Program-made: the position numbers and the translations under genes
Virus record (IMG/VR): IMGVR_UViG_3300009091_000310
Location: 1 to 42,213 of that record
From: a virus
DNA: 42,213 nt
Direction: 5' to 3' (one strand)
Part shown: in pieces, positions 4,944 through 41,168 of the stretch
Layout of the letters: each line of letters begins with the position of its first letter
Position numbering within the stretch: the stretch's first letter is position 1
The notes under the pieces: model-generated
Database searches by the model: none
Seen by the model: the letters and a program-made list of their open reading frames with translations, nothing else
Told to the model about the DNA's origin: nothing

Positions 4944-4955
4944 AAACTGAATAGA

Positions 4956-5008: not shown

Positions 5009-5013
5009 GGTAT

Positions 5014-5086
5014 TGCTATGTAGCTTAATTGGCAGAGCATACGACTGTTAATCGTGTAGGTTCTGGTTCGACTCCAGACGTAGCAG
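5014..5086 (+). tRNA. tRNA-Asn (anticodon GTT)
   Basis: The 7-bp acceptor stem pairs TGCTATG (5014-5020) with CGTAGCA (5079-5085), with one G-U pair and discriminator G5086. The anticodon stem TACGA/TCGTG encloses loop CTGTTAA, giving anticodon GTT. The T-arm is TCTGG-TTCGACT-CCAGA. No encoded CCA follows. It lies between two copies of the unusual stem-loop element. Confidence 0.93.
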
Positions 5087-5090
5087 TTAC

Positions 5091-5140
5091 GACTCCATAC
5101 AGCAAAAAATACCCCAACTCGAAATTGGAAAAATGGAGTC
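5091..5140 (+). ncRNA. tRNA-adjacent stem-loop element, copy 2
   Basis: GACTCCAT (5091-5098) pairs with ATGGAGTC (5133-5140). Inside are ACAGCAAAAAATACC, a CCAA-CTCGAAA-TTGG hairpin and an A-run, the same plan as copy 1. The closing stem differs from copy 1 at several positions and all pairs are retained, which is covariation evidence for a real RNA fold. It fits almost exactly between tRNA-Asn (4 bases away) and tRNA-Met (6 bases away). Confidence 0.6.
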
Positions 5141-5146
5141 TGTTAC

Positions 5147-5217
5147 AGCGGGATAAAGTAGAGGATACTTACGAGTCTCATAAACTCGACAGGGAAGTTC
5201 GAATCTTCCTCCCGCTA
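5147..5217 (+). tRNA. tRNA-Met (anticodon CAT)
   Basis: Acceptor stem AGCGGGA (5147-5153) pairs perfectly with TCCCGCT (5210-5216), discriminator A5217. The D-arm is AAGT/ACTT. The anticodon stem CGAGT/ACTCG encloses CTCATAA, giving CAT. The T-arm is GGAAG-TTCGAAT-CTTCC. Elongator methionine is the simplest reading; a CAT anticodon modified to read isoleucine AUA cannot be excluded from sequence. The A-U ending is atypical for an initiator. Confidence 0.88.
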
Positions 5218-5231
5218 TTTAAGGAGAAATT

Positions 5232-5630
5232 ATGAGTAATGTAGAAGAACCGCTGGCTGAGTTTTATTATAACCAACTAAGAGAGACTACTAATCCAGTA
5301 GGTACTTTAGTAGCTTTCTATAGGTCTTTATTTGATGTAGATAAAGCAGACGAGTCTACGTATAAAATGTTTGCTAGACTATATAAGATTTATGGGAAGG
5401 AGTTAATTTACTTTGCGTTATTAGACTGTGCTGATATGGAGAATATTAATTTTGATTCTAGTATAGCTCGCCTTATATCTTATTTTGCTAAAAAGAGATT
5501 GGGAGACTCTACTAATTTTAATTTACCAGTAGACCTTACATTTTTGGTAAAGCAGTTTGAGAAAAATACAGAAAAGGTCAGAAAGGTTAAAATAAATTTG
5601 AACCCATTTGAGGATGAACCCAATGAATGA
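5232..5630 (+). CDS. Hypothetical protein upstream of DnaB helicase
   Basis: 132 residues, predicted mainly helical, with acidic ends and a basic KKRLGD/KVRKVKIN section. A strong AAGGAG site lies 10 bases before the ATG, just after tRNA-Met. The 3' end overlaps the helicase start, so translation is coupled. Helicase loaders and replication initiators often sit here, but I see no AAA+ or winged-helix signature, so loader function is only a positional guess. Confidence 0.65.
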   Translation: MSNVEEPLAEFYYNQLRETTNPVGTLVAFYRSLFDVDKADESTYKMFARLYKIYGKELIYFALLDCADMENINFDSSIARLISYFAKKRLGDSTNFNLPVDLTFLVKQFEKNTEKVRKVKINLNPFEDEPNE

Positions 5631-18082: not shown

Positions 18083-18279
18083 TGAGATGGATTGAAGTTA
18101 TAGAAACTAATAGAACTAGAAATATAGCTTATGTAGCTATAATACAAGACGACCCTTATTGGGCTACTAATTTAGAAGTTAAGTTAGACTGGGTAGAGGA
18201 ATTAATGAGGTGCAAATTTGAGGATGGTACACATAATTTTGTTACAATAAATTTTAACGGAGAAGTTGAATATGCTTAA
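18082..18279 (+). CDS. Hypothetical protein
   Basis: 65 residues, beta-rich (MRWIEVIETNRTRNIAYVA), single cysteine. Shares one base with the preceding gene and eight with the ribonucleotide reductase start, and supplies GGAGAAG for it. Possibly translationally coupled to the reductase; function unknown. Confidence 0.55.
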   Translation: MRWIEVIETNRTRNIAYVAIIQDDPYWATNLEVKLDWVEELMRCKFEDGTHNFVTINFNGEVEYA

Positions 18280-20815
18280 CGATAAAGCACAGAAAATTTT
18301 CGATATGAAGTATACCGCATTTAGAGGAGAAACCTGGAATCAAGCTTGTTGGAGAGTGGCTGAGTTTGTTGCGAGTGCTGAGGGTACACAAGAGAAACGG
18401 GATGAATATGCTAAAAAGTTCTTTGAACTAATTTATAATTTAGCATTTCTACCTGGAGGTAGGATTTTAGCGAATGCGGGTACTAATATAAAGAACAATG
18501 CAAATTGTTTTGTTTTAAAGGTAGAAGATTCTAGAGATGGAATTTATAAAACTTTAAAAGATGCGGCTGAAATCTTTGCCTGGGGAGGTGGCGTCGGGTA
18601 TGATTTCAGTTCTTTGAGAGAAAAAGGTGCTGATGTAAAAACCACTGGTGGAAAAGCTTCTGGCCCTCTTTCTTTTATGTCGCTATTTGATCAAACTGGA
18701 GAGGTTATTTCCCAAGCATCTAGACGTGGTGCACAATTAGGATTACTGAATGTATCTCATCCAGATATCGAAAAATTTATTAATTATAAATCCACCCCTA
18801 ATTCTAGAAATACTAGATTATTAGAAGAGTATAAGAGAAATCTTGAAATGAATGGATTGGATAAAAAAGGTACTAAATATTTTAAAGTACTAGAAAAAAC
18901 TCTACAAGACGACCAATTATCTCATTTCAATATTTCCGTTATATTAGACGATACTTTTATGTCATCTGTTTTAACAGATCAAGAGTGGGCTTTAAAATCA
19001 GTAACTACTGGAGAAGAAGTTAAAAGAGTTAAAGCAAAAGATTTACTGATGCAGATTTCCAATATGGCATGGGAAAGCGGAGACCCAGGAATTTTCTTTT
19101 ATGATAGAACTAATGAAGATAACATGGTTCCATATATTTCTGATATTTCCGCCGCTAATCCATGTATTACCGGGGATACAAAAATATTAACAGTTTATGA
19201 TGGCCCTCGTCCAATTAAAGAATTAGCAGAAGAGGGGTATGATGTATTAGTCTATACCTGGAATCCTAAGACGAAACTTCCAGGAGTTTCTGTTATGGAT
19301 AGACCAAGACTAACTAGAAAAAATACAGATGTTATAGAAGTAGAATTTGATTCTGGATTAAAAGTAAAATGTACTCCAGACCATAATTTTTATACTTTTA
19401 GAGGAAATAAAATCCAAGCTAAAGATTTAAAAGTTGGACAATCGATTCGTGCCTTTTCAGGCGGAGTCCATGTTGATAAACATATTAGAGTACACGGTTG
19501 GGTAGATGGAAAAGCAAAACATCAATATACTGCAAGAATGGTTTGGGAACGTTTCCACGAAAAGATTGAAAATGGATTAATATTGCACCACAAGGATTTA
19601 AATCCAGTAAATAATAGACTAGAGAATTTAGAGTTAGTTACTTTACAAGAACATAATCAAATTCATGGAAGAGACAGAAGATATAAAAACCATAAAGTAG
19701 TTTCTGTAAAAGAATTAAAAGAAAAATATGATGTTTATAATGGGACTGTAGATGATACACATACCTATATTATTGCAGATGATAAACCAGTAGCGGGGGA
19801 TTTCTCTGGTGTAGTATCTGCAAACTGTGGGGAAATCCCCATGTTACCGGGAGAACCTTGTGTACTCGGTGCTTTAAATTTATATGCATTTATTAAAGAT
19901 GGGAAAATTGATTTTGAGTTTTTAGAATATGCTGTCAGAACTGCTATTAGATTTTTAGATAATATTCAGAGTTTAAATGAGACTCCTGTAGATTACGTAA
20001 ATGAAATGTCAAGAGGACTTAGAAGATTAGGTTTAGGGATCATGGGTTTAGCTGATCTTTTAGCAGAATTAGAAACTCCCTATAATTCTAAAACAGCAAT
20101 AGAACTATCTAATTATTTAAGTTGGTTTATTAATTTCTTTGCGTGGCTAGAGTCTATTGATTTAGCTGTAGAACGTGGGGCTTTTCCATATTATGATAAA
20201 GAGAAAGTTAGCCTAAAAGTTGTAGAAAAAGTCTTACATTCTAAATACAATAAAAATGCTAGATTTGATATGAATAGTATTAGAAATATTGGTTTTAGAA
20301 ACGTGTCTGTAACTACTATCGCACCTACTGGTACAATTGCTATTCTAGCTGGAGTAAATTCTGGTATTGAACCTTTCTTTGCACTTTCTTATAGAAGAAA
20401 TATTACAGAAGGTATAGGAAATACTGCTAAAGATTTTATTGTAGAACTCAATCCAATCCTTTTTAGAAAGTTAGAGAAATATGGTTTTTCCCCTGATGAA
20501 ATTGAGGACATTCGTTCACACGTAGAAAAAACTGGTAGCTTAAGTGGGCTGGAAAAAATTCCAGAAAACATTCGGCGCATTTTTAACATTTCTCATGAAA
20601 TTTCACCGTATGAGCATTTGGACATGCAAGCATCCTGGCAGGAATACGTATCAAACGCAATTAGTAAAACTACAAATTGTCCACAAGAAATTACACCAGA
20701 AGAAATATTTGATTTATTAGTTTATGCGTGGAATTTAGGAGTTAAGGGTACCACCATTTATAGAGATAAATCTAAAACTTTCCAAATTCTAAATTTACCA
20801 AATGGAGAAAATTAA
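18272..20815 (+). CDS. nrdJ: Class II (B12-dependent) ribonucleotide reductase, intein-containing
   Basis: 847 residues as translated, about 626 after removal of a 221-residue intein. FLPGGRILANAGT, NANCFVL (first disulfide Cys, C79), FAWGGGVGYDFSSLREKGADV, KTTGGKASGPLSFM, the RRGAQLG region and WESGDPGIFFYDRTN are signatures of adenosylcobalamin-type NrdJ. NP-intein-CGEIPMLPGEPC carries the radical cysteine (C519, intein +1) and catalytic Glu. TTIAPTGTIAILAGVNSGIEP and TTNCPQE (second disulfide Cys) follow. The usual C-terminal CxxC tail is missing, so an external reductant is expected. ATG at 18272 has GGAGAAG upstream. Ends just before the convergent terminator. Confidence 0.92.
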   Translation: MLNDKAQKIFDMKYTAFRGETWNQACWRVAEFVASAEGTQEKRDEYAKKFFELIYNLAFLPGGRILANAGTNIKNNANCFVLKVEDSRDGIYKTLKDAAEIFAWGGGVGYDFSSLREKGADVKTTGGKASGPLSFMSLFDQTGEVISQASRRGAQLGLLNVSHPDIEKFINYKSTPNSRNTRLLEEYKRNLEMNGLDKKGTKYFKVLEKTLQDDQLSHFNISVILDDTFMSSVLTDQEWALKSVTTGEEVKRVKAKDLLMQISNMAWESGDPGIFFYDRTNEDNMVPYISDISAANPCITGDTKILTVYDGPRPIKELAEEGYDVLVYTWNPKTKLPGVSVMDRPRLTRKNTDVIEVEFDSGLKVKCTPDHNFYTFRGNKIQAKDLKVGQSIRAFSGGVHVDKHIRVHGWVDGKAKHQYTARMVWERFHEKIENGLILHHKDLNPVNNRLENLELVTLQEHNQIHGRDRRYKNHKVVSVKELKEKYDVYNGTVDDTHTYIIADDKPVAGDFSGVVSANCGEIPMLPGEPCVLGALNLYAFIKDGKIDFEFLEYAVRTAIRFLDNIQSLNETPVDYVNEMSRGLRRLGLGIMGLADLLAELETPYNSKTAIELSNYLSWFINFFAWLESIDLAVERGAFPYYDKEKVSLKVVEKVLHSKYNKNARFDMNSIRNIGFRNVSVTTIAPTGTIAILAGVNSGIEPFFALSYRRNITEGIGNTAKDFIVELNPILFRKLEKYGFSPDEIEDIRSHVEKTGSLSGLEKIPENIRRIFNISHEISPYEHLDMQASWQEYVSNAISKTTNCPQEITPEEIFDLLVYAWNLGVKGTTIYRDKSKTFQILNLPNGEN
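19163..19825 (+). mobile_element. Intein with HNH homing endonuclease inside nrdJ
   Basis: In-frame 221-residue insertion. Block A is CITGDTKIL (C1), block B is TPDHNFYTF, the F-like block is YDVYNGTVDDTHTYI, and the end is VVSAN before C+1. The centre holds an HNH_3-type motif: LILHHKDLNPVNNRLENLEL, then VTLQEHNQIH. The penultimate residue is Ala instead of the usual His; active inteins with this change are known. The insertion splits NP from CGEIP, so only spliced protein has an active site. Likely a mobile genetic parasite of the reductase gene. Confidence 0.9.
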
Positions 20816-23376: not shown

Positions 23377-23550
23377 TTACCTAGATATTATTGATCTAAA
23401 TGTAACACCAATTACATAACTTGCAGATAATAATAGTATAACTGATACTACATAGTGTAAAATATTAAATTCTACTAGAACCCACACAACTAACATCATT
23501 GCTAGTAATAGGATTATACCTACTAAAAGAGTTTTAAGATGTTCTATCAT
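23377..23550 (-). CDS. Small membrane protein
   Basis: 57 residues, two transmembrane helices (about 6-27 and 31-50) joined by EFNILHY. AAGG lies upstream of the ATG, which overlaps the upstream gene by 17 bases. Fills the only 160-base gap in this part of the run. Function unknown. Confidence 0.6.
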   Translation of the reverse strand: MIEHLKTLLVGIILLLAMMLVVWVLVEFNILHYVVSVILLLSASYVIGVTFRSIISR

Positions 23551-23896
23551 TATCTTTTTCCTTTTGCTTATTAATACGTCTTTGTATTCTTCTTAGTAAA
23601 TCTAAAGCATCACTTATTTCTGTAGAGGAATAGTTAACCCTTAATTCATTTATAGCTTCTTTTCTATAAAATTCAGTATCAGTAACTTCATTTATATCCC
23701 ACATATCATTTACATCTTCAAATGGTGTAGGACATGAACAACCACTATCTCTAACTGTATAGATTTTTTGTGTTTCTATTTCTTGTAAAAATATTCTAGT
23801 ATCAAAATTATAATCATAATTAGAAAATTCTATTTCACCGAGTAGTTTCATATTCCATTTTTCAGGATTGTAGTAAATATTGCTTTCGTAGTTCAT
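23534..23896 (-). CDS. Hypothetical protein with CSCP motif
   Basis: 120 residues. The central YTVRDSGCSCPTPFEDVND (C53, C55) is a pattern I recall from many small phage proteins of unknown function. The C-terminus is a basic, charged helix (RRIQRRINKQKEKDNDR). Function unknown; the motif may bind metal or form a reactive pair. Confidence 0.65.
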   Translation of the reverse strand: MNYESNIYYNPEKWNMKLLGEIEFSNYDYNFDTRIFLQEIETQKIYTVRDSGCSCPTPFEDVNDMWDINEVTDTEFYRKEAINELRVNYSSTEISDALDLLRRIQRRINKQKEKDNDRTS

Positions 23897-25940: not shown

Positions 25941-25955
25941 CCACAAGGAATTAAA
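25941..25955 (-). promoter_or_regulatory. Candidate phage-specific promoter element (copy A)
   Basis: Minus-strand TTTAATTCCTTGTGG, followed by a GAAA-containing AT-rich stretch. The identical 15 bases occur at 35624-35638, and CTTGTGG again at 42207-42213. Here it overlaps the stop of the 354-residue gene and lies 43 bases upstream of the next ATG. Downstream TATAGA could act as a -10. Function inferred from recurrence and position. Confidence 0.5.
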
Positions 25956-27015
25956 TACCAAATAACCTATATTGTGTTTTTGGAATGCGCTTAAAAGCTT
26001 TATCCCAAAGTAGCACTGCATTTTCTTCAGTTGACCCCGCACTAAATATCCCATCAGAATAGTTCTTAAACACCTTTACTTTTCGTGGATACATATATTC
26101 ATATTTAGTTTTAGGGGTAACCCACTCTCCTACTTTAAATTTTGTATTCTCGTTATTTTCTATAAGTTTAATTTCTACAACTGGAGAATATACTGTTATA
26201 ATATTTCTATTAATTATATCTTCAATCATTGACATTCCAGATTTTTTAACTGCTAAAAGTATACCAATAATTGGAGGATAAAATGCATCTCTAGATTTTT
26301 CTGTAACTAGAGCACCCTTTGGTATACTAGAATAGTTATTCCAATCTAAGTTCATAAAAATTTCAGTTTGAGTTAGATGCCCTTTCGGATTAATACTTAA
26401 ATAAGTATTTACATTATCTATATCATCTAAGCGTAATAAATCTTCTATGGTAAGTTTAATTTCTGCTAAACTTCTATAACTCTTACCAATATTATTAATA
26501 CTTAAAACATAGTCTATTAAACTCTTATTTTCTGGTCTTTTTGAGTAGTATGTTTCTGGAACATATTTTTCTATTATAGAAGTCATTCTTAAAATATGAT
26601 GTAAAACATATAATAGAAATGGTCTTACTAATTCTGAATATTTATCTGAAACTTCTACAGTAAATATTGGACAATACACCTCAGACCCTTTATTTGGATT
26701 ATTAGATAATTCTAAACCTCCCGATCCCCACAACGAGTTAGATGTTCTATAATAAAGAGATTTATTTGATACAATAGTATATTTTATATTTTTAAAGGTG
26801 GAATTTAGTTCAGCAATAAGTTCCTCTATCCAAATAGGAACTGCTGGAAATATAAAATAATAATTTAAACCTATTTTATATAGATATCTTATAAATCCAG
26901 AATAACATCCATTCGATTTAAAAATATTCTTTGATCCATGAGGGTAATCTACCCATTCTTGTTGTGCAGAACTATCTAAATCATTACCAAAGTAAGTCAA
27001 TGTTTCCGGAACCAT
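25951..27015 (-). CDS. Unknown large protein of the amidoligase cassette (paralogue 2)
   Basis: 354 residues. Shares with the protein at 27185-28081 the blocks FIFPAVPIWIEELIAELN...FKNIKYTIVS (here about 54-83), FLLYVLHHILRMTSIIEKY (about 134-152) and NIGKSYRSLAEIKLTIEDLL (about 175-194). It is about 55 residues longer, with a C-terminal strand-rich region about 255-354. No known catalytic motif seen. Being the last gene of the cassette, after a class I amidotransferase, it could be a substrate, scaffold or partner enzyme. Family unrecognised. Confidence 0.65.
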   Translation of the reverse strand: MVPETLTYFGNDLDSSAQQEWVDYPHGSKNIFKSNGCYSGFIRYLYKIGLNYYFIFPAVPIWIEELIAELNSTFKNIKYTIVSNKSLYYRTSNSLWGSGGLELSNNPNKGSEVYCPIFTVEVSDKYSELVRPFLLYVLHHILRMTSIIEKYVPETYYSKRPENKSLIDYVLSINNIGKSYRSLAEIKLTIEDLLRLDDIDNVNTYLSINPKGHLTQTEIFMNLDWNNYSSIPKGALVTEKSRDAFYPPIIGILLAVKKSGMSMIEDIINRNIITVYSPVVEIKLIENNENTKFKVGEWVTPKTKYEYMYPRKVKVFKNYSDGIFSAGSTEENAVLLWDKAFKRIPKTQYRLFGI

Positions 27016-27183
27016 TTATCCTCCTAAAATTCCTCTATTTTTATCTTCTAATAAATCATTAATAAGTTCATTATCAAATACAATTTTAGCTTGTTCTTTA
27101 GGACTATTATGAATTTTAAATATTGAAAACGTTAGTCCTAAAAATGATATAAGTACTGCTAAGGTAGCAAATAATCCCAACAT
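27016..27183 (-). CDS. Small membrane-anchored protein
   Basis: 55 residues. One N-terminal transmembrane helix (about 2-23), then a charged helical tail ending ILGG. GGAG-type sequence lies in the upstream gene end. It occupies the 168 bases between the two paralogous large genes, with a one-base gap on each side or none. Function unknown. Confidence 0.6.
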   Translation of the reverse strand: MLGLFATLAVLISFLGLTFSIFKIHNSPKEQAKIVFDNELINDLLEDKNRGILGG

Positions 27184-27184
27184 T

Positions 27185-28081
27185 TTAACTAGTCTCCTTT
27201 TCCTTTTTTTGAAGATAAATATTACTAATTTTATAACTATTAGAAATTGAAACTTTGTATGAATTATGCGCTAATACTTTTATTTTACTAAAGTTAAATG
27301 GTAATTCTTCCTCTACAATAGCATCTGTCATATCTGGACTGATAAAAGAATTCTTACTATTTTGTAGACCAGAAACTTTATCTCCTACTTTAAGAGTGTT
27401 TTCAAATTTAACACCACCAGCTAATAAAATTAATGAAAATAACCACGTTTGTCTGTAATCCTTATAGAGAGATATATCTTTAAAAGCACTATTAACAATA
27501 TTAATATTATCTAAAAGCATAAAATGTTGTAATGTTAATTCTCCTTCTACAAGACTTCTGTACCCAGGATTGGCATTATTTAATGCAAGTACTACAGATA
27601 AAGAATCTTGTTTTTTAGGATGTTCCTCCGTTTCTATAGGTAGATAATTTTCTATTATAGATATTAGTCTTAAATAATGATGTAAGAGATATTTTAAATA
27701 ATAAACACCATTTTCTGAATAATCATCATTAAATTTTATTGTAAATAAAACCTGTTTTAAATGTCTTCTAACATTTCCAGGTTCACTAAATAATAGATTT
27801 CCATCATATGGGGCGTATGCATGGTAGACATCTCTTTCAGCTAAAACATTATATTTTATATTTTTAAATTTTCTATTAAATTTATTAATTATCCTCATAT
27901 ACCATACTGGAATATATGGAAATGCAAAAATAAAAGGTAACTGTTTAATTTTAAAACCATCCCTTCTAAAAAAAGCACCATAACATTCTGTATAACTGAA
28001 GATATCTAATCTAATTTTATCCCAAGTTTCTATAGTAGAATTTAAATCTTTATCTGCTACTGACCATGTACCTTTACCCAT
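27185..28081 (-). CDS. Unknown large protein of the amidoligase cassette (paralogue 1)
   Basis: 298 residues from the ATG at 28081; an ATG at 28093 has GGAGG immediately adjacent (too close), and 28081 has it 12 bases upstream, so the start is ambiguous. FIFAFPYIPVWYMRIINKFN, FKNIKYNVLA, YLLHHYLRLISIIENYLP and NPGYRSLVEGELTLQHFM parallel the 354-residue protein. The C-terminus is shorter and basic. Overlaps the class I amidotransferase gene by eight bases. Function unknown. Confidence 0.65.
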   Translation of the reverse strand: MGKGTWSVADKDLNSTIETWDKIRLDIFSYTECYGAFFRRDGFKIKQLPFIFAFPYIPVWYMRIINKFNRKFKNIKYNVLAERDVYHAYAPYDGNLLFSEPGNVRRHLKQVLFTIKFNDDYSENGVYYLKYLLHHYLRLISIIENYLPIETEEHPKKQDSLSVVLALNNANPGYRSLVEGELTLQHFMLLDNINIVNSAFKDISLYKDYRQTWLFSLILLAGGVKFENTLKVGDKVSGLQNSKNSFISPDMTDAIVEEELPFNFSKIKVLAHNSYKVSISNSYKISNIYLQKKEKETS

Positions 28082-28823
28082 TATTGGTTCCATCCTCCCA
28101 ATTTAAAGTAACTGTTCCAGGATTATTATTTCTAGTTTTACTTGCAAATGCTCTAAACATAGTTTTAAAATCGCCATCTTCGTAACTTGTTTTAGACGAA
28201 CTTGTGCTAGATTTAATTTCAGCAGTTAATCCGTCTCTATCAACAACCCATTTATTAACTACTTCAAAAAATCTTTTACCATCTTCTCCCATAAATTCTG
28301 GATGAAATTGTACAGAATAAATATAAGGACTTTCTGTAGATTCTATTACGCCTCTAAATGTAGAAGATGCTTTTAAAGAATTTCCTACTCGTACTACTCC
28401 CTGATGGTGAATAGAATTAACTGACGAATTATTAAATATATATCTTGTAAGAGATATTCCCGGCATATAATTTAATTCATGATGACCTGGATGATTACCA
28501 TCTCCATCAAAATATAAATCTTGTATAAGACCTCCTCCTAAATATGCATTAATTAATTGATGACCTCTACATATTCCAAGAATTTTCTTTTTAGCAACAT
28601 CACACCTAGCTAATATACTTAATTCAATTTCATCTCTCTTATCATTAAAATAAGAATGTCTATTTTGTTCACCATATATTCTTGGATTAATATCTTCTCC
28701 CCCAGAAAAAATAATTAAGTCATATTTATTAACATCTAAAGAACTTTGTATTACTTCTAACTCTGGATAAAAATACTTAAACGCACCGAAAAATGCACTG
28801 TATGCCAACCCAACTTTTAACAT
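28074..28823 (-). CDS. Class I glutamine amidotransferase, peptidase C26/PuuD-like
   Basis: 249 residues. SGGEDINPRIYGE (40-52) is the gamma-glutamyl hydrolase signature, GICRGHQL (83-90, nucleophile C85), IHHQG, and VQFHPEFMGE (H174, E176) complete the triad. About residues 190-249 form an extra Ser/Thr- and charged-residue tail. PuuD-like enzymes cleave gamma-glutamyl amide bonds; in amidoligase operons they are thought to trim or recycle glutamyl products. The start overlaps the amidoligase stop by seven bases. Confidence 0.88.
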   Translation of the reverse strand: MLKVGLAYSAFFGAFKYFYPELEVIQSSLDVNKYDLIIFSGGEDINPRIYGEQNRHSYFNDKRDEIELSILARCDVAKKKILGICRGHQLINAYLGGGLIQDLYFDGDGNHPGHHELNYMPGISLTRYIFNNSSVNSIHHQGVVRVGNSLKASSTFRGVIESTESPYIYSVQFHPEFMGEDGKRFFEVVNKWVVDRDGLTAEIKSSTSSSKTSYEDGDFKTMFRAFASKTRNNNPGTVTLNWEDGTNNG

Positions 28824-29698
28824 ACCATCTCCAAAATTCTACTAGCTAATTCCTGATCAGTATTAATAATAGCAGTAACAGTTTCTGGTAAATATTCTTT
28901 AATTACTTTTATACCTTCTTCTGGATTAAGAAGTAAATTTGTAGCTTTTTCTGACATATAAAACATTCCCTCTATATCATTTAAAGACAGGGATAACCAA
29001 GAATTTGATGGTGTTCTATACTCGATTCCTTTTACACCATTTTTATATTCTTGTTGACGAAATCTTCCCGGTCTTCCATAAGTTAACGATCTTAGCTTTT
29101 CAAGATCAGGAAATAAAGACTTAGATACAACATAATTTCCTAGAAAAATTGCTAATAATTGTATTGCTGGTCTTGGATAATTAAATAATTCATCTACACC
29201 TGAAATATGAAAATGACCTCCTCCATATCTTAATAAATGTGTAGTAACATCAATAGTTTCGCATTCATATTCTGTATCTATTGCATCTTCATCGGCATCA
29301 CAGCCAAAAATAAAACCTTGATAAATTTTTTCATTATCTAATTGATTTACATATAAATGTGGTTCAATATCTACGACTGGTTTTTTGTATAAATATAACT
29401 TTAAACCATTCCAAGTTAGCCTACTAATAAAGTTTTCTAAACAATCTAAAGAATTATTTATTATATTGTACATTTCAGATGGGGTTTTCAACGGATTTTT
29501 AACTGTTAATTCCATTGCTACACCATCCATCATCCAACTAAATTCTGGTTCGTCTATATAAACGGGGTGTTTATAATCATCTTTTATAGGAATAATTTGT
29601 CCAGTACCTTCTAATAATGCTGGTGAAATTACACAATTTTTATTATCCACAACAGTAGTTAGAAAAACTTCCGGGTCTGTTCCATAACTTAAAACCAT
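28817..29698 (-). CDS. phiEco32-like COOH-NH2 ligase (amidoligase type 2)
   Basis: 293 residues. GTDPEVFL (6-13), DGVAMEL (58-64), GGGHFHIS (159-166) and GRPGRFR...KGIEYRTPSN (208-232) are the acidic, His-rich and Arg motifs of the glutamine-synthetase-like amidoligases found in phages. They bind ATP and metal and ligate a carboxylate to an amine. It lies between a zinc-ribbon protein and the class I amidotransferase. AAGGAG-type sequence precedes the ATG. Acceptor and donor are unknown. Confidence 0.88.
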   Translation of the reverse strand: MVLSYGTDPEVFLTTVVDNKNCVISPALLEGTGQIIPIKDDYKHPVYIDEPEFSWMMDGVAMELTVKNPLKTPSEMYNIINNSLDCLENFISRLTWNGLKLYLYKKPVVDIEPHLYVNQLDNEKIYQGFIFGCDADEDAIDTEYECETIDVTTHLLRYGGGHFHISGVDELFNYPRPAIQLLAIFLGNYVVSKSLFPDLEKLRSLTYGRPGRFRQQEYKNGVKGIEYRTPSNSWLSLSLNDIEGMFYMSEKATNLLLNPEEGIKVIKEYLPETVTAIINTDQELASRILEMVC

Positions 29699-29710
29699 TT
29701 TTATATCTCC

Positions 29711-30094
29711 TTATTTGAAATAAACTTTAGATAATATACTTTTTAAATCTTTAATACTTTCCCCAGGAAATATTTCTGAGGTACCATGTTTTTTACAATA
29801 CATTCCATTACTAGTAGAAGGACTAACCAACTCTTTTACTGGAAAAACTCCTCCACAATAAAAGCACGTCCCAGTTAAATAATCTAAATCTTGAAATGAT
29901 TCTCTACAATTAGTGCAGTAAAAAGTTGGTCTATCTACCTCACTAAGTTGAACAATTTTACCTGCTCTTATTTTTAATCCAGTCCTTAATAAACCAAATG
30001 ATGTAACAATTTTAAACATCGAAGTAATATCTAAATAAACATTATTTCCACATTTTGAATGCAAAAGGTAAGTCACGCCTCTACTCCCTATCAT
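29711..30094 (-). CDS. Zinc-ribbon protein of the amidoligase cassette
   Basis: 127 residues from the ATG at 30094 (GGAAGGA seven bases upstream; an ATG at 30121 has no site). It contains YCTNC...TCFYC and a late CKKHGTS, enough for two zinc sites. The N-terminal part is strand-rich (YLLHSKCGNNVYLDI). Position inside the cassette suggests a helper or regulatory subunit; function is not known. Confidence 0.65.
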   Translation of the reverse strand: MIGSRGVTYLLHSKCGNNVYLDITSMFKIVTSFGLLRTGLKIRAGKIVQLSEVDRPTFYCTNCRESFQDLDYLTGTCFYCGGVFPVKELVSPSTSNGMYCKKHGTSEIFPGESIKDLKSILSKVYFK

Positions 30095-30095
30095 T

Positions 30096-31169
30096 TTATA
30101 ATCCTTCCGAATATAATGCAATCCCTATTTTTTCTGTAATTCCTAATACACCACGAATAGTGTCTAGTCTATTATTTAAATCGGTTACATTTTTAAATAA
30201 TAGAGGATCATCTATATAAAAAGTTATTGTTGATCTTAATACTACTGCCTCTTTAACGTCTGCTAACTCCTCCTGAAATACATCTATATCAACAACTTTT
30301 CCTATAGTAAAAAAAGGAATAAACTTATTTTCTACAATTTCACTTAACTTTACTCGACATGGTTTATCATCTTTAGTTTTATCTAAAGTACCACCTCCTA
30401 AATATTTTACATCTTTTTCTTCCTCGACTTTTTTAGTTTTTTCTTCTTCTTCAGCTTTCTTAATTTTTTCCTCAGCTTTCTTATAAGCCTCAGCAGTTAT
30501 TCTTTTAATTTTTATAAGATTAGCCGGATCAACAACGGTTTTATTTCTGAATGATCTATCAAATTCCCATAAATCTATATAAGTTTCTGTAACTACTGGA
30601 AATGCATCTATTAAATTTTGTACAAAAAACACTACAGAACATCCAAAACTCTCCGCCCTTTCAGCAGGTTTTAATAAATTTGAAGTTGTATTAATAAAAT
30701 GTGCAACAGCTTTTACTATTGGTTTTGTTTCCATAATAAAAACGTGTTTTTGAAATTCTGCTTTTGAAATATCCCATTTATAACTCACCCCTAAAATAGG
30801 TCTTGTAGTCTCCGGATCAAAACTTGTGTAAGCCGGGGCTAATTCTTTTTCATCAGTAAAATCAAAAATTAAACAAGAGTTAACCCAATCATACAGTAAT
30901 ACACATTCACCATCAAAATTATTAATTAAATATTTGGTAATAACAGCCTCATCTTTTTCCCCTAACTCATGTTTAGGTTTTTCAGAAGTTTCAAAATAAG
31001 CCGCTAAACTTAATTCCCCAGGTTTATATTCGCTTACACGTATTATACATATATCAAGAGGATTACTTTTAAAATAATAAAGACTTTTATCTTTTGCCGC
31101 ATACGGATAGTTTATAGAATCTATATGCTTTCTAAACATACTAGAGTCGCCAATACTTAAAACTGACAT
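30096..31169 (-). CDS. Unknown protein paired with RuvB-like ATPase
   Basis: 357 residues. N-terminal half alpha/beta; a charged Lys/Glu-rich linker (about 222-254) joins a C-terminal domain with strands (FTIGKVVDIDVFQEELADVK, LRSTITFYIDDPLLF). The ATG overlaps the ATPase gene end by 13 bases. Stop and the next start are three bases apart. It is the natural partner of the ATPase by position. No enzymatic motif recognised. Confidence 0.6.
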   Translation of the reverse strand: MSVLSIGDSSMFRKHIDSINYPYAAKDKSLYYFKSNPLDICIIRVSEYKPGELSLAAYFETSEKPKHELGEKDEAVITKYLINNFDGECVLLYDWVNSCLIFDFTDEKELAPAYTSFDPETTRPILGVSYKWDISKAEFQKHVFIMETKPIVKAVAHFINTTSNLLKPAERAESFGCSVVFFVQNLIDAFPVVTETYIDLWEFDRSFRNKTVVDPANLIKIKRITAEAYKKAEEKIKKAEEEEKTKKVEEEKDVKYLGGGTLDKTKDDKPCRVKLSEIVENKFIPFFTIGKVVDIDVFQEELADVKEAVVLRSTITFYIDDPLLFKNVTDLNNRLDTIRGVLGITEKIGIALYSEGL

Positions 31170-31942
31170 AATTCTCTCCCTTTGCTGGTAATTTTAATTA
31201 GACCTAGATAAATTAATCCTGGTTCTACTTCTGATAATAATAAATTTTTATCTAATCCAGTTCCACTAGAAATTGTATTTAAACTAGCTTTTCCCCCAAC
31301 TCTATTTAAAAATTCTATATAAATCATATCGTGTTGGTTTAATCCTCCACTATGTATCTGTAAAACATTATCCAATATTCCCATATAATCATTTAAATTA
31401 CTAACATTATAATTTCTTAGAATGTAGTTTATTCTATTACAAGTTATCTTTATAATTCTAGGATTTCTTTTCCCTCTTCTAGCAACTTCTCTTACAAATT
31501 CATCTGGTAAATTATTATTTTCTAGACATCTTTGTGCTATTGCATATAATTCAGGATCAGAATACGGCTCAAAAATAAATGGTATACACCTATTTATTAG
31601 AGGTTCTTTTAAGTAACCACTTTCATTACTAGCTAAAATAAAAGTAAAGTTACCAGAGTCTAGAAATGGGTATAATACTTCGGGGGTTTTCAACGTATGA
31701 ATTTCATCTATAAAATGAAAACGCCTTTCTGTAATTGCATCATAATTAATATTTCCTTCGTTATCTGGTATGTAATAATATGAATTAGAAAGTCCTAAAT
31801 AATTTATACAAATTAATCCCAGAGTAGTTTTTCCAAAACCACTTGGTGCACGCAATAAAATATTATAATTATCTCCATCATTTACAGCACTTAAAAGATA
31901 TTTTAGTTCTGTAAGTATTCGTTCTTGTCCTATAAATTCCAT
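31157..31942 (-). CDS. RuvB-like AAA+ ATPase
   Basis: 261 residues. Walker A APSGFGKTTL (32-41), Walker B FHFIDEIH (75-82), sensor 1 FILASNE (101-107), arginine-finger Arg118 in LINRC. The C-terminal region, about 195-260, matches RuvB's winged helix (GLNQHDMIYIEFLN, TGLDKNLLLSEVEPGLIYLG, then LIKITSKGREL). Host RuvB is about 330-340 residues; here the N-terminal part is shorter. It may remodel DNA junctions or a complex; its place in an amidoligase cassette without RuvA or RuvC is unusual. Confidence 0.82.
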   Translation of the reverse strand: MEFIGQERILTELKYLLSAVNDGDNYNILLRAPSGFGKTTLGLICINYLGLSNSYYYIPDNEGNINYDAITERRFHFIDEIHTLKTPEVLYPFLDSGNFTFILASNESGYLKEPLINRCIPFIFEPYSDPELYAIAQRCLENNNLPDEFVREVARRGKRNPRIIKITCNRINYILRNYNVSNLNDYMGILDNVLQIHSGGLNQHDMIYIEFLNRVGGKASLNTISSGTGLDKNLLLSEVEPGLIYLGLIKITSKGRELCQF

Positions 31943-31957
31943 TCATGTTATCTCCAA

Positions 31958-32704
31958 CTATAAATTTTCTATCAAAAAATTCGAATACAATTCTGCTGTG
32001 TGTTCGTTTAGTCCTGGGGCAGAATTAGCCTCAAAAATAAAGTACTCTTTCTTTTTCTTATCCCAACCGATATCTAAAGCATAAAAACCAAATGTAAAAC
32101 CACCTTTTGTAAAAAGATCATTTAAAGTATCTATAGTAGCAGAAAGTTTAGGATAGTTTTGAATATCTCTTATAGAAAAATGACAGGTATCATTATTTCT
32201 TATAAGAAACTCTGTACTCTCCATAGGGTCTTTTCTAAAAATTCTAGCAATTTTTCCTCCAAGAACATGAACCCTTAATTCAAAATCTGTAAAAATATAG
32301 GGAGTCCAAAACTCTCCTCTATATTGAGCATTAAATTCTTCTCTATTTTTACATAAAACAATTCCTTTTCCACCAGATGCAGATAGCGTCCTTCTAATTA
32401 ATACTGGATATTCAACACTATCTAAATCTTTAGTACCTTTTTTATAAATTGGTGTGTGCATATTATTAACTAATAAATTAGAAAAAGCTAACTTACTAGA
32501 ACATACCCTAATAAAATCTGGACTATTTAATGTAGTATCTTCCTTAAAATTTCCTCCACTATTCCCATATCTAATTTTTGGAGATGATTTTAACCTTTCT
32601 GGGTAAGAAGTTAATCTAACCCTTTCTCCAGTAGCTTGTTCAATTAAATTTTTTAATATCCTACCAGATGGAAATGAATAACTACTGCACAAGATGTTTA
32701 GCAT
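31958..32704 (-). CDS. ATP-grasp ligase (RimK/phage type)
   Basis: 248 residues. Short N-terminal domain, then VLIRRTLSASGGKGIVLC (nucleotide-binding loop), FELRVHVLGGKIARIFRKD, and FGFYALDIGW...KEYFIFEANSAPGLNEHT with the metal-binding E-x-N. These proteins activate a carboxylate as acyl phosphate and join it to an amine. Size and loop order resemble ATP-grasp enzymes in phage amidoligase operons. The start overlaps the class II amidotransferase end by 23 bases. Substrate unknown. Confidence 0.85.
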   Translation of the reverse strand: MLNILCSSYSFPSGRILKNLIEQATGERVRLTSYPERLKSSPKIRYGNSGGNFKEDTTLNSPDFIRVCSSKLAFSNLLVNNMHTPIYKKGTKDLDSVEYPVLIRRTLSASGGKGIVLCKNREEFNAQYRGEFWTPYIFTDFELRVHVLGGKIARIFRKDPMESTEFLIRNNDTCHFSIRDIQNYPKLSATIDTLNDLFTKGGFTFGFYALDIGWDKKKKEYFIFEANSAPGLNEHTAELYSNFLIENL

Positions 32705-33869
32705 CTTTATCCTTTCTAATATTTCTAAGAATTGTTATATCTGATTCCAGCATAAATGGAAATTCAATTAAGTGTGTATTATGAAACTCCAAATTATATC
32801 TAGCAGTTGATGGGGAGAAGAAATGTTTCCACTCTTTAAATATATTATTATTAGAAATATGCTTTTTTATCTCTGGTACAATTTCTGTCATAAAGAATTT
32901 TACATCTTCTTCAGTACAACCCAATAAAGGTTTTTTAACAGTAATATACAAAAGTTCATCAAGATATCTGATATCAATTCCCCATTCAATACACAAATTA
33001 AATACATCTTGAATTAGGGGATCATCAACTTTAGTATTTTCTTTAGAATATTTTTTGGCTGGAAAGGGGGCGGCACTCTGAGCTGGAACCGTAGCAGGTC
33101 TTTTAGTTTCTACAATTTCTCCAACAATTTTTAAATCATTTAGTTTCTTATCTAGTTTATAGATGGTATTTTCTTTTAATTCCTCTACATCATCCGTCCA
33201 ATCTAGTTTAACTCCCTTCATTAACATTAAATTTGTAAATAAAAGAGCCGCAGTATCTAAAGAACTACTATCTGTATTGACAATAAATCCTACTCTTTTT
33301 TTATTAGCACTGACAACTTTCTTATGGAGTTTAGCAGTTTCTCCTCTTACTACATAATAATCAGAGTGTACTTTATCAAAGATAATAAATGCAAATTTTC
33401 CAAAGAAGTTTTCATATGCACTTTTCAAACAACTAACAAAATCTTTATTCTCATCTTTTTCATAAATCTCATCAAAAATTTCCAAAAAGATTTCAGAATC
33501 TATTTTATCTCCAAAAGTTCTTTTACTATATGGAGAGGTTTCTCTTAATTCTAGTGAGCCATTATGTGCAAAAACTAACCTTTCTGTTTGAAACGGATGA
33601 CTTTTTAAATCACTTACTGTTTTAACTCCATTTGTAAAAGTAGCTTTTCTTACATGCCCAATTACTGGAGTTTCTTTAATATTAGAAATAAAAGTTCCTA
33701 AGTTATAACAATTAGATGGTGCAACCCCAGTTTTCCTTAAATTATTCGGTTCTGAAAAATAACCAAAACCATCTTTATTATCTACTACAGAATTAATAAA
33801 AGATTGAATAAGCAGATAATTGGAATTGAATATAGTGCTATTTAAATTAACTAAAGTCAACTGACACAT
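32682..33869 (-). CDS. Class II glutamine amidotransferase (Ntn hydrolase)
   Basis: 395 residues. Catalytic Cys2 after the start Met (MCQLTLVN), GHVRKATFTNG with the binding Arg, HPFQ...VFAHNGSLE and KIDSEIFLEIF are the GATase_4/6 signatures. After about residue 230 the domain changes to an unrelated region, about 270-395, with strands and helices of unknown function. It releases ammonia from glutamine for a ligase partner. Its ATG shares one base with the previous amidoligase stop, implying co-production. Confidence 0.88.
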   Translation of the reverse strand: MCQLTLVNLNSTIFNSNYLLIQSFINSVVDNKDGFGYFSEPNNLRKTGVAPSNCYNLGTFISNIKETPVIGHVRKATFTNGVKTVSDLKSHPFQTERLVFAHNGSLELRETSPYSKRTFGDKIDSEIFLEIFDEIYEKDENKDFVSCLKSAYENFFGKFAFIIFDKVHSDYYVVRGETAKLHKKVVSANKKRVGFIVNTDSSSLDTAALLFTNLMLMKGVKLDWTDDVEELKENTIYKLDKKLNDLKIVGEIVETKRPATVPAQSAAPFPAKKYSKENTKVDDPLIQDVFNLCIEWGIDIRYLDELLYITVKKPLLGCTEEDVKFFMTEIVPEIKKHISNNNIFKEWKHFFSPSTARYNLEFHNTHLIEFPFMLESDITILRNIRKDKDAKHLVQ

Positions 33870-34990
33870 TATGCCTCACCTCTTAAAACATGGATATCAA
33901 CATATTTTGGTTTAAAAATTAAACTACCATCTATTAATGCTGGAGAATAACCATTAGTCCAATATCTTCGTAAATCTCTATTAATATGAGTATGAACATA
34001 TTTTCTAGGTAAAACAGGAATTTCAGATATATCAATAATATGATGTAAAATACTTAAACATTTTTGATTAAGATTTGAGATATTTGAGAAATAATTAAGA
34101 GCCTCTCTAATTGTTTCTTTATTTATATCTGTATTATAAATAGAATTTTCGTGCAGTAAATCCTCATCTGCTAAAGTATCATAAGATGATTTTATTGCAT
34201 GATTAACAAATGCTTTACATAACATCATACTAGCATAAATAAAATCAGGATTTAGAGTTTTATTAAATACCCTAAATTCTAAAGTACCTTTACATTCTCC
34301 ATAAGGACAAAGAGGATATAAATTTAACCAAGTATATCTTACTGGATTATATCTTCCACCATGTAATTCTAATTCACCATATCTATTCCAAAACTCGGCT
34401 ACAGTTCTAGATTTTAAAACATCATAAATATTAAAAACTTGTGTAAAATATCCATCATCTGTTTGTACACAAGGAGGCCCAAATTTTGTTATTGGTCTAC
34501 AATAAATAGAGTCGTTTTTAATTCCTCTAAATTCATATCCCATACAACCTACAGTAAAGAATAAAGATTCAAGATATTTCCCTAATCTCAAAATAGATTT
34601 TAATATTCTTAGATTTGGATTTGGTAAACTAAAATGAAAATGTATTCCAGTCCTTTCTGAAGTAGTAGACTCTCCAAGTTCAATAAGTTTTCCAACTAAA
34701 CCTCTAATTATTGGTAAAGATTCTTGTTCATCAGAATTTAAAATACCAGATACTAATTCTGTTCCAATAGTTACTCTGTTAGATTCTAAAACATCAAATA
34801 TTCTATCATTAGGATTATTTTGTAAAAATAATCCATTAGATGTCATATAAACATCGGACTCACAAGATGCATCGTGAGTAGTTCTAAAATTATTAATATT
34901 AATTTCACTTGCATAACAAGAATCTGTTTCAAACTCTATTCCAAAAGTTTCACCAATTTGAATTATATTTCCTTCGATAATCTTAGGCAT
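33869..34990 (-). CDS. Amidoligase (Amidoligase_2 family)
   Basis: 373 residues. FGIEFET (16-22), HDASCESD (39-46), TELVSGIL (77-84), RTGIHFHFS (113-121), RYTWLNLYP and GTLEFRVFNKT (235-245) are the family's ordered motifs. Glutamine-synthetase fold enzyme that should form an amide from carboxylate and amine using ATP. First large gene of the second minus-strand unit. It has weak similarity in motif layout to the two other amidoligases here, but belongs to a different subfamily. Confidence 0.88.
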   Translation of the reverse strand: MPKIIEGNIIQIGETFGIEFETDSCYASEININNFRTTHDASCESDVYMTSNGLFLQNNPNDRIFDVLESNRVTIGTELVSGILNSDEQESLPIIRGLVGKLIELGESTTSERTGIHFHFSLPNPNLRILKSILRLGKYLESLFFTVGCMGYEFRGIKNDSIYCRPITKFGPPCVQTDDGYFTQVFNIYDVLKSRTVAEFWNRYGELELHGGRYNPVRYTWLNLYPLCPYGECKGTLEFRVFNKTLNPDFIYASMMLCKAFVNHAIKSSYDTLADEDLLHENSIYNTDINKETIREALNYFSNISNLNQKCLSILHHIIDISEIPVLPRKYVHTHINRDLRRYWTNGYSPALIDGSLIFKPKYVDIHVLRGEA

Positions 34991-38551: not shown

Positions 38552-39298
38552 CTATACAAATTTTATTTGATCTAAGAATTTAAAACCATCTACTAAGATT
38601 TGAGGTAGATTTGCCATAGACTTATAAGAAAAAGGTAAACTCCTATACTCAAATCCCCAGGGTTTAGTTTCATAAAAACCAGGCTGGCGGAATTTTAATC
38701 TTGGGTAATCTTTAGTAAGGGTTTTCAACCAAATTTTATCGTATCCACGAATAATCTTTTTCATCCATTCTTCAGGTAAAACATTTTCTTTAGCTTTTCT
38801 AGTTTCATATTCTCCAAGATGGACATACTTATCTTTAATTTTTACTAATTTAGGATATTGATATTCTACCCTTTGTTGAAAACTAAAATGTAAATGTAAA
38901 CCAGTAGAAATATAATAAGATTTTATTACCCCGTCTTCTACTATTGCATCCGTCATCTTTAAAATATCAGTTCTATATATATTTCTACAGGTGGATATTT
39001 CTTTTCCTCCCATACGCCTTAAAATTTCAGCATAAAATTCTGGAGTTATGGATGTAAATCCATCGGTGTAGATAATTAATTTATTTTTATAGGCTAGTTC
39101 TTGGAGTCTGTACCATTTTTTGTAAAAATCCCCCATTAAATCTGGGGTATTTGTAGACGCCTCCGTTCTTTCCTCTCCTAAAATAGTAAATTCATCTGTA
39201 GAAAAACCATAGTCTTCAGGAAAAACAAGTTCATTTTGTCCGTTAATATATTTGCCTACAAAAAATTCAAATTCAAAACCAATTTTCTTTACTAACAT
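38552..39298 (-). CDS. Amidoligase-like protein, third in the window
   Basis: 248 residues. GFEFEFFVG (7-15), ERTEAS (43-48), STGLHLHFS (131-139) and RQPGFYE...GFEYRSLPFS (204-224) match the COOH-NH2 ligase motif order seen in the gene at 28817-29698 (GTDPEVF, GVAMEL, GGHFHIS, RPGRFR..GIEYRTPS). It lies near the vWA gene rather than in the main cassette. Same fold but divergent substrate regions; the acidic first motif is FEFEFF instead of DPEVF. Probable carboxylate-amine ligase. Confidence 0.8.
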   Translation of the reverse strand: MLVKKIGFEFEFFVGKYINGQNELVFPEDYGFSTDEFTILGEERTEASTNTPDLMGDFYKKWYRLQELAYKNKLIIYTDGFTSITPEFYAEILRRMGGKEISTCRNIYRTDILKMTDAIVEDGVIKSYYISTGLHLHFSFQQRVEYQYPKLVKIKDKYVHLGEYETRKAKENVLPEEWMKKIIRGYDKIWLKTLTKDYPRLKFRQPGFYETKPWGFEYRSLPFSYKSMANLPQILVDGFKFLDQIKFV

Positions 39299-39456: not shown

Positions 39457-39663
39457 TTAAAAATCTAAAAACATTTCCTGAAAAAATTCATCATCCTCTT
39501 CTGTTCCAATATCAATATAAAGCATTTTATCTTCTTTATCAATATTAGTTTTTCCAAAAGAATAAACAGATAGAACATGAGCCTCTCCATATGGAGTGGA
39601 AATTTTTAATTCAGCATCTGGATTAGCTTTTTTTAAATCTTCAAGTAAATCTTTTACTTTCAT
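39457..39663 (-). CDS. Small acidic protein
   Basis: 68 residues. MKVKDLLEDLKKANPDAELKI, then STPYGEAHVLSVYSFG, is the pattern of a common short phage domain (KVKDLIxxLxxxPxDAEV), here intact. Strongly acidic C-terminus. Shares one base with the vWA gene. Function unknown. Confidence 0.6.
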   Translation of the reverse strand: MKVKDLLEDLKKANPDAELKISTPYGEAHVLSVYSFGKTNIDKEDKMLYIDIGTEEDDEFFQEMFLDF

Positions 39664-41168
39664 TATACGACAATCCTTTCATACCTTTCTGAATTTAAAG
39701 TTCTTAGAACAACTTTAATCGGTTCTAGTTCTCCACCCAAAACTTGCTTAATAATTGACGGAGAAAATCCAGAAACTAATGCAGTACCTTTTTCATCATA
39801 TTTCGTAGGAATACCAGAAGAAGTTCTTAAATTCCAGAAAACAATTTGAGGTCTTTTATATCCTGCTCTAGAATACATTCTATCAATCATTTGCATAGCA
39901 TTATCGGAATAATTTTCTGCACACTGATCAAATTGCATATCAGAAATGATTAAAAGAATTCTAGGCATATATTTTGCTGGTAAATTATTTTTACCAGCCT
40001 GATCAAGAATAAGTCTAAAAGTAGCCTCCAAGTTTGTATTTTCCGCAAGATTAATTCTAGAAAAGTTAAGAATCTTTTCCCAGATATTGTTTCCTTTTAA
40101 TTCAATAAAGGTAGGTCTCTTTGAAAAAGTTATCACCAAATCTTTAAAACTTCCATAATTCCTTTCTGCACAATAAATTCCTAAAGAAATTGAAACGTCT
40201 AAGGGAAGATAATCATTTGCTGTCATACTACCAGAAACATCACAAACTGGTAAGACATAAAAATCTTCATCATTTGGAAAATAATTAGGAAGATTTTGCC
40301 ATTGTGCTTGGCAGGCATCTAATAAACTTTTTTCTGGGCTATGTATAGTTTGTTTCCCAAAATAAGAAATATTACTACGCATAAGCCTAACCAAAGGTTT
40401 AATTATATCATTAGGGAAAATAGCACCAGCTTTAATTTCTGCTTCGCCTTTTAGTACTTTTTCAAGAAATTTCTTAAATCTTTCTGGGTCATGTCTAGCA
40501 AAAGCTTTTCTATATTTTGCAAATGCATTACTAGGAACCTGGGAATATTTAATTTCCCCCCATTCTTTTCTACACATTAAGGTTTCCACAACTTGCGTGT
40601 TACCAGCTAAAAGTTTTCTGTAATTTCTCAAAACCCATCTATTTCCTTCTTCAGATAGGGTTACAGAAGTTCTATTAAAAATATAGTGTGCAAGTTTCTT
40701 AGCAATATCTTTATGAGATTTATTTTCTCTGGGCATCCATTTCGCACAGAGTTTGTCCCCAGATTTTAAACCATACATACATAAATCTAAACCATAAATT
40801 TCTATAGGAGTATTAATTGTACAAAATAGTACATCATCCCATCTACCATAAAAAGGAATATGAATTAAGAGTTTTTTAGCAAGATCGGGATAATAATTTG
40901 CTAGGTGACGAAACATTGCTCGAAAAGTTTCTCTTTCTCCTTGTCCACCACGAATATCTCTATTATAAAACATACATTTTAAAGCCAATAATTTATTTTC
41001 ATTCATTGCTCTAACAAAATCTAGAACAATTTCATTTTCTTTTGTTCTCATTCCTCCCATTCTAAAAAATAAATTAACTAATTCAGAACCAGAAGTGCTA
41101 TGAGTAACCATAGCATTTTCTGTTAAAGCATCATTTGTTTGCATGGCACTTACAAATTTTCTAGTCAT
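39663..41168 (-). CDS. DUF2828/TROVE-like protein with vWA domain
   Basis: 501 residues. N-terminal alpha-solenoid-like section includes LVNLFFRMGGMR and NRDIRGGQGERETFR (69-83), as in Ro60/DUF2828 proteins. The C-terminal vWA has the metal site DVSGSM (310-315), a Thr near 379 and SDMQFD (409-414), all MIDAS residues present. Ro60-type proteins bind small structured RNAs; DUF2828 members occur in phages and giant viruses with unknown function. Together with the structured RNAs in the window an RNA-binding role is attractive but unproven. Confidence 0.82.
   Translation of the reverse strand: MTRKFVSAMQTNDALTENAMVTHSTSGSELVNLFFRMGGMRTKENEIVLDFVRAMNENKLLALKCMFYNRDIRGGQGERETFRAMFRHLANYYPDLAKKLLIHIPFYGRWDDVLFCTINTPIEIYGLDLCMYGLKSGDKLCAKWMPRENKSHKDIAKKLAHYIFNRTSVTLSEEGNRWVLRNYRKLLAGNTQVVETLMCRKEWGEIKYSQVPSNAFAKYRKAFARHDPERFKKFLEKVLKGEAEIKAGAIFPNDIIKPLVRLMRSNISYFGKQTIHSPEKSLLDACQAQWQNLPNYFPNDEDFYVLPVCDVSGSMTANDYLPLDVSISLGIYCAERNYGSFKDLVITFSKRPTFIELKGNNIWEKILNFSRINLAENTNLEATFRLILDQAGKNNLPAKYMPRILLIISDMQFDQCAENYSDNAMQMIDRMYSRAGYKRPQIVFWNLRTSSGIPTKYDEKGTALVSGFSPSIIKQVLGGELEPIKVVLRTLNSERYERIVV

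Follow-up and report, generated by a model that had tools for sequence, protein, structure and literature searches.

The window analyzed here, the 42,213-base virus record IMGVR_UViG_3300009091_000310 of IMG/VR, contains a cassette of ten minus-strand open reading frames (ORFs; positions 25951–34990, Table 1). Five of them encode enzymes of amide chemistry: an Amidoligase_2 protein (G1), a class II glutamine amidotransferase (G2), an ATP-grasp ligase (G3), a COOH-NH2 ligase (G7), and a class I amidotransferase of the Peptidase C26 family (G8). This five-enzyme set has already been described, and the cassette of the window is a lineage-specific, extended form of a known phage amidoligase cassette. 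It is under selection, recurs in a lineage of seven virus records including the window, and holds a gene for a RuvB-like AAA+ ATPase (G4) that is separable from the other genes. We consider it probable, while leaving appreciable weight to other accounts, that the cassette encodes a cytoplasmic assembly line for gamma-glutamyl or other amide bonds, in which the ATPase is an independent co-resident of the operon.

Conservation of the Cassette and Its Active Sites

Profile matches in Pfam and PHROG agree with the five enzyme assignments that an initial annotation had made from the letters of the window, and the catalytic motifs it had read prove to be intact rather than degenerate in alignments with phage homologues and with the window's own lineage. 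In the Amidoligase_2 protein, E19, E21, E78, H117, H119, E238, and R240 are invariant across ten diverse phage homologues and the lineage. Across several phage groups and the lineage, the same is true of C2, R74, N103, G104, and D124 in the class II amidotransferase, which has the N-terminal cysteine nucleophile and the glutamine-site residues of its class; of K71, E142, R144, D211, E225, and N227 in the ATP-grasp ligase; of E10, E63, H162, H164, R203, E226, and R228 in the COOH-NH2 ligase; and of the triad C85, H174, and E176 in the C26 protein. Judging from what is known of these families, the invariant residues would be catalytic. The nearest solved chain to the C26 protein is 3fij (Lin1909; E 3e-25), and PuuD in the PDB is matched at E 4e-9 only.

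A profile search with the ATP-grasp ligase identified three closer relatives (L012, L013, and L014; 37%–43% identity), and a search with the COOH-NH2 ligase added L115, L119, and L120. The first three were recovered by a profile built with phage homologues; single-protein scans of IMG/VR with the ATP-grasp ligase, the class II amidotransferase, or the ATPase found nothing, nor did a scan with the paralogous twin pair (G9 and G10) alone. In L012, L014, L119, and L120 the order is Amidoligase_2, class II amidotransferase, ATP-grasp ligase, AAA+ ATPase, a protein of no assigned family, zinc-ribbon protein, and COOH-NH2 ligase. Some of these four carry small insertions, and the C26 and twin genes come next, in an order that varies. 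L013 and L115 have a different order and retain the segment from the class II amidotransferase to the ATPase, so that the AAA+ gene lies directly behind the ATP-grasp gene in 7/7 lineage cassettes. The replication module (polymerase, UvsX/RecA-like recombinase, DnaB, resolvase-like nuclease, primase, dUTPase, and NrdA) is colinear with that of the window in L012, L013, and L014, and one relative carries terminase and portal genes, which indicates that the lineage comprises tailed phages.

On the minus-strand arm of the window, 7 of 11 cassette ORFs and only 1 of 39 other ORFs are conserved in two or more of three relatives. Together with the recurrence of the gene order in other viruses, this contrast sets the cassette apart from a chance grouping. 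Its packing is operon-like, as had been proposed: six of the nine junctions overlap (by 1, 23, 13, 26, 7, and 20 nt), two leave 15 and 12 nt between the genes, and at the ninth (27015/27185) the spacing is 169 nt, so that the last gene is less tightly coupled.

Several observations were made in passing. A further glutamine-synthetase-like ligase candidate (FEFEFF...GLHLHFSF...FEYRSLPF) is encoded at window positions 38552–39298 (minus strand); it has no Pfam or PHROG match, has a homologue at L014:17248–17955, and aligns locally with the profile of the COOH-NH2 ligase in hhalign (probability 92, 35 columns). A second class II amidotransferase at L013:2927–3709, truncated at 260 residues, retains the catalytic residues and is without the C-terminal domain. 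A DUF7574 gene that lies outside the cassette in the window (23534–23896, minus strand) lies inside it in L012 (12852–13190), between the genes for the zinc-ribbon protein and the COOH-NH2 ligase. In record G002, the C26 gene is found at the contig start (L100:1705–2283) and the remaining cassette at the contig end (L103), a split that suggests a circular or circularly permuted genome.

The Same Enzymes in Other Phages

A seven-gene "peptidoglycan modification cassette" was named in a paper on Pseudoalteromonas phages and proposed to stop superinfection; RIO-1-like phages, phiEco32, 7-11, PA11, tf, LUZ24, PaP3, and CW02 are listed there as sharing it (PMC5498523). The same enzyme families are grouped in the Zobellviridae CVT22, CW02, T2S1, KZY1, and RIO-1, and also in the crAss-like phage cr108_1, a Leptolyngbya phage, and the LUZ24-like UFV-P2. 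In phiEco32, four of the five families are annotated, with no C26 among them. At least four of the five occur together at 62 loci of the scanned set, mostly IMG/VR contigs. The link to phiEco32-type phages drawn in the initial annotation is therefore real, and the neighborhood search it had named beforehand as a test shows that the genes co-occur widely in other phages. Its view of the whole as an undescribed mix with a RuvB-like ATPase and two paralogues does not hold for the enzymes, a set that had already been named (PMC5498523); the ATPase is a real and constant neighbor in the lineage.

The window groups with these cassettes in having the Amidoligase_2 protein and the COOH-NH2 ligase together, a RimK-like ATP-grasp ligase in the block, a class II amidotransferase, and a C26 protein with an intact triad, C26 being a usual but not universal member. 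The gamma-glutamyl cyclotransferase (GGCT) of the GGACT family (PF06094) gave no match in the seven lineage records. This enzyme is optional, as none is annotated in the CVT22 and cr108_1 stretches either, and its absence places the window outside the RIO-1 form yet within the broader cassette. A tblastn search with the class II amidotransferase against GenBank phages gave no match. Identification of the cassette with a known defense system was rejected, as PADLOC returned no match.

The Twin Proteins and a Cys/Arg/His Family

The twins are paralogues (36.5% identity, E 6e-29), and homologues of them adjoin the C26 gene in L012, L014, L119, and L120. All carry the motif C-[FY]-[GSA] near the N terminus, together with an arginine in a later helix, and have no invariant histidine. 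The predicted fold of G9 (pLDDT 55, pTM 0.61) gave no Foldseek match with E below 0.09 against the PDB and BFVD, and its best VIA-align Z of 4.0 is not meaningful.

In other cassettes, about 28 proteins form a family, here called F18, whose genes usually lie directly upstream of C26 (for example, L026:4842–5651, L046:4237–5034, L060:468–1193, and L002:11062–12390). An N-terminal cysteine (C-[HFYN]), a central arginine, and a C-terminal histidine are invariant in 15 aligned members, and the family has no PDB or Pfam match. Products gp87 and gp88 of phiEco32 and two cr108_1 genes carry a similar N-terminal motif. Near cassettes C-[FY]-[GSA] was counted in 23/151 versus 6/163, a contrast whose p-value is optimistic because the motif was tested after it had been seen. 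The twins resemble F18 in position, size, motif, and, by eye, the order of helices and strands; as a comparison of the profiles was not significant, a relationship between the two is only suggested. F18 is a candidate for an unrecognized enzyme of the amidoligase cassette, present cassette-wide and apparently unnoticed until now. The two paralogues, part of the mix that the initial annotation had taken to be undescribed, have look-alikes adjoining the C26 gene in many cassettes.

A RuvB-Like ATPase Separable from the Cassette

G4 matches RuvB along its whole length (PDB chain 3pfi, profile E 3e-28), with the AAA+ core, Walker A and B motifs, sensor residues, and C-terminal winged helix all present. 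PHROG clamp-loader matches span the AAA+ core only, and the C-terminal domain matches RuvB_C. About 20 residues are missing between Walker B and sensor 1 in the alignment, a stretch that in RuvB is the presensor-1 beta-hairpin, which binds RuvA (domain III) (PMC9477746). On this alignment, G4 is best described as RuvB-like and without a defining feature of RuvB. The short spacing is common to homologues with and without a cassette. Neither G5 nor G6 matched a RuvA family in profile searches, the fold prediction for G5 being unreliable.

A profile search with the ATPase identified four more relatives, L109–L112, in which no cassette gene was found around the AAA+ gene. Whole-record searches (G004–G007) yielded no ATP-grasp, COOH-NH2, or Amidoligase_2 match, and C26 was not found in G004, G006, and G007, the record of L110 having been left out of that search. 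L109, L110, and L111 are close kin, and the cassette-less records represent about two independent lineages. Trees of the ATPase, DnaB, and the polymerase agree on the well-supported groups (midpoint root; inner branching weak): the cassette-bearing pair L119/L120 falls on one side, and the cassette-less records fall on the other, among cassette-bearing ones. The simplest reading is that the cassette was lost from these records and the ATPase kept. Because the ATPase persists without the cassette and follows the phage tree, it most likely has a function of its own. Cassettes of other phages, moreover, have no AAA+ gene. We infer that G4, while sharing the operon, is most likely a replication or recombination protein in its own right and is not needed for the amide chemistry; a DNA-processing role is the likeliest given the recombinase and the Holliday-junction-resolvase-like nuclease in the same genome. 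Given its presence in these four records, the ATPase lends no support to the idea of a new amide-forming machine.

A zinc-ribbon match beside the AAA+ gene in L109/L110 was attributed to a zinc motif arising by chance in a protein of 272 residues, and a genome scan with the ATPase returned only a RuvB-like fragment in Mycoplasma. In the cassette-less L111, two paralogues (1915–2709 and 4663–5319) that by eye resemble metallopeptidases of the M20/M42 type are encoded near the AAA+ gene.

The two genes behind the ATPase gene differ in conservation. Positional homologues of G5 in L012, L013, and L014 share 19%–21% identity, all G5 homologues come from cassette-bearing records, and no similarity is detectable to the 441- and 439-residue proteins at the same position in L119 and L120. 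Profile searches gave G5 no family or fold match, and its predicted fold (pLDDT 35) is unusable. In G6, C69, C72, C86, and C89 are invariant in four homologues; each of the seven cassette-bearing records has the protein, with weak matches in L119 and L120, and strong matches occur in cassette-bearing records only.

A Model for the Cassette and Its Alternatives

In the proposed assembly line, the class II amidotransferase would free ammonia from glutamine, and the ATP-grasp ligase and the two glutamine-synthetase-fold ligases would use ATP to form successive amide bonds, gamma-glutamyl or amidated, on a small peptide or amino-acid-like molecule. The C26 hydrolase would remove or recycle the gamma-glutamyl group, replacing the cyclotransferase of many other phage versions; as the latter is absent here, C26 may do all the trimming. 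Within this pathway, the twins would probably be carriers, subunits that confer specificity, or additional enzymes. Cassette proteins contain no hydrophobic segment pointing to membrane or export signals.

Four points weigh against this model. To our knowledge, no member of these phage cassettes has a tested biochemical activity, and the order of reactions is thus our inference. The comparison of the twins with the F18 profile was not significant, leaving position and motif as the basis for their role. The cassette-less records are 31–84 kb long and possibly incomplete. Finally, the position of the AAA+ gene directly after the ATP-grasp gene, held even in the reordered L115 and L013, could mean a functional tie.

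The sequences, which fix no substrate, are compatible with a soluble metabolite, a wall precursor, and protein tagging alike. A product of the first kind, such as a gamma-glutamyl peptide or amine, a thiol, or a nitrogen store that aids phage replication with nitrogen from glutamine breakdown, is possible, if clearly less probable than the general model. The enzyme logic parallels the gamma-glutamyl pathways of PuuA/PuuD and of butirosin BtrJ/BtrG, cassette genes lie beside primase/helicase and polymerase genes in many phages, and a glutaredoxin gene lies near the RIO-1 cassette. However, sequence searches with the lineage profiles of Amidoligase_2 and the COOH-NH2 ligase gave no match to any solved structure.

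Slightly more doubtful is a remodeling of peptidoglycan stem peptides by the cassette during infection, through which the surface of the host would come to exclude other phages. This role has been published for RIO-1-like phages, with the list of phages given above (PMC5498523), and for phiEco32 (PMC10580990), and bacteria are known to amidate wall precursors by amidotransferase/ligase pairs such as MurT/GatD (PMC3267633). The literature searched contained no experiment on it, however. With no secretion or membrane signals in the cassette, only cytoplasmic wall precursors would be reachable, and a wall target would have to be shared among the Gram-negative, cyanobacterial, and gut hosts from which cassette-bearing phages are annotated.

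That the ATPase, G5, and G6 belong to the amide machinery, with the motor remodeling a protein or nucleoprotein target for the ligases, appears unlikely. The fixed position of the AAA+ gene and the confinement of strong G6 matches and all G5 homologues to cassette-bearing records argue for it, but the four records that keep the ATPase without a detected cassette gene, its agreement with the DnaB/polymerase tree, and the cassettes of other phages that lack it argue otherwise. Less likely again is that the cassette has captured a RuvB-derived motor without its RuvA-binding hairpin, which would act together with G5 and the zinc-ribbon protein to bring a protein or nucleoprotein target to the ligases, or to unfold it, for tagging; if true, the phage would have an energy-driven system for tagging proteins or nucleoproteins. 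The least probable proposal is that phage DNA, or a protein bound to it, receives an amino-acid or amide group as protection from restriction. It draws on the associated replication genes and the conserved winged-helix domain of the RuvB-like protein, but the families identified in the window include no base-hydroxymethylation, deazaguanine, or kinase genes, the enzymes match peptide/amine ligases rather than base-modifying enzymes, and PADLOC gave no match.

Genes of the Cassette and the Window

All ten ORFs of the cassette are present on the minus strand (Table 1). The ATP-grasp ligase matches Pfam ATP-grasp models below cut-off only, and the COOH-NH2 ligase matches PF14395 at E 0.001, below that model's cut-off. 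The TTG start of G6 is uncertain; its relatives begin about 15 residues later.

Table 1. Positions and assignments of the cassette genes in the window.
Gene	Position	Strand	Product	Basis
G1	33869..34990	-	Amidoligase_2, glutamine-synthetase-like fold ligase	PF12224, E 3e-8
G2	32682..33869	-	Stand-alone class II (Ntn) glutamine amidotransferase, lineage-specific C-terminal domain	PF13230, E 1.5e-6
G3	31958..32704	-	RimK-like ATP-grasp ligase	phrog_2599 (S6 glutaminyl transferase), E 9e-18
G4	31157..31942	-	RuvB-like AAA+ ATPase, winged helix	RuvB_C PF05491, E 1.4e-11; RuvB_N PF05496, E 4e-8
G5	30096..31169	-	Partner, no family assigned, behind AAA+ gene	Positional homologues in L012, L013, L014
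G6	29711..30121	-	Zinc-ribbon protein	Four invariant Cys; Pfam matches weak
G7	28817..29698	-	phiEco32-type COOH-NH2 ligase	phrog_3815, E 7e-19
G8	28074..28823	-	PuuD-like class I amidotransferase/gamma-glutamyl hydrolase	Peptidase_C26 PF07722, E 2e-29
G9	27185..28093	-	Twin protein, N-terminal C-[FY]-[GSA] motif	36.5% identical to G10
G10	25951..27015	-	Second twin protein, behind 169-nt gap	Paralogue of G9

Elsewhere in the window, the large subunit of ribonucleotide reductase (18266–20815, plus strand) is interrupted by an insert that matches HNH endonucleases and is apparently an intein. The protein encoded at 39663–41168 (minus strand) matches DUF2828/DUF7788 and the PHROG "RNA-binding protein" phrog_850 (E 9e-125), has a von Willebrand A-like part, and is possibly a Ro60/TROVE-like RNA protein.

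Comparison with Known Systems

The amidoligase cassette is found in several unrelated phage groups, and no product was reported in the literature searched. What is new here is the lineage, the insertion of the ATPase, zinc-ribbon, and G5 genes, the missing cyclotransferase, and the Cys/Arg/His family. The compact and conserved version in seven viruses allows a tighter definition of the enzyme core, reveals the cyclotransferase to be dispensable, and sets the RuvB-like ATPase apart from the chemistry, thus making the long-open question of the product easier to test.

Gamma-glutamyl hydrolases of the PuuD/Lin1909 type share the Peptidase C26 family and the Cys-His-Glu triad with G8, which, unlike them, is encoded with ligases in one phage operon. 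The RuvB Holliday-junction motor shares with G4 the arginine finger and sensor 2 in addition to the core, Walker motifs, and winged helix, whereas G4 is about 75 residues shorter, is without the RuvA-binding presensor-1 hairpin, and has no RuvA-like match in its cassette. The crAss-like cr108_1 (L006) has, in one row, the ATP-grasp ligase, two genes of about 300 residues with a C-F-[GA] motif, the class I amidotransferase, the COOH-NH2 ligase, the class II amidotransferase, and an amidoligase-like gene; it differs in having no AAA+ gene, another gene order, and a larger class II amidotransferase. The cassettes of RIO-1, PSA-HP1, phiEco32, LUZ24, CW02, and CVT22 have Amidoligase_2, the COOH-NH2 ligase, the RimK-like ATP-grasp ligase, and the class II amidotransferase, gathered in a single block, in common with the window. 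They often have C26 as well, adjoined in many by a C-[HFY]-[AGS] protein. Compared with these, the window has no GGCT-type enzyme, carries the RuvB-like ATPase gene directly behind the ATP-grasp gene, and adds to the block the zinc-ribbon protein, G5, and two divergent paralogous proteins.

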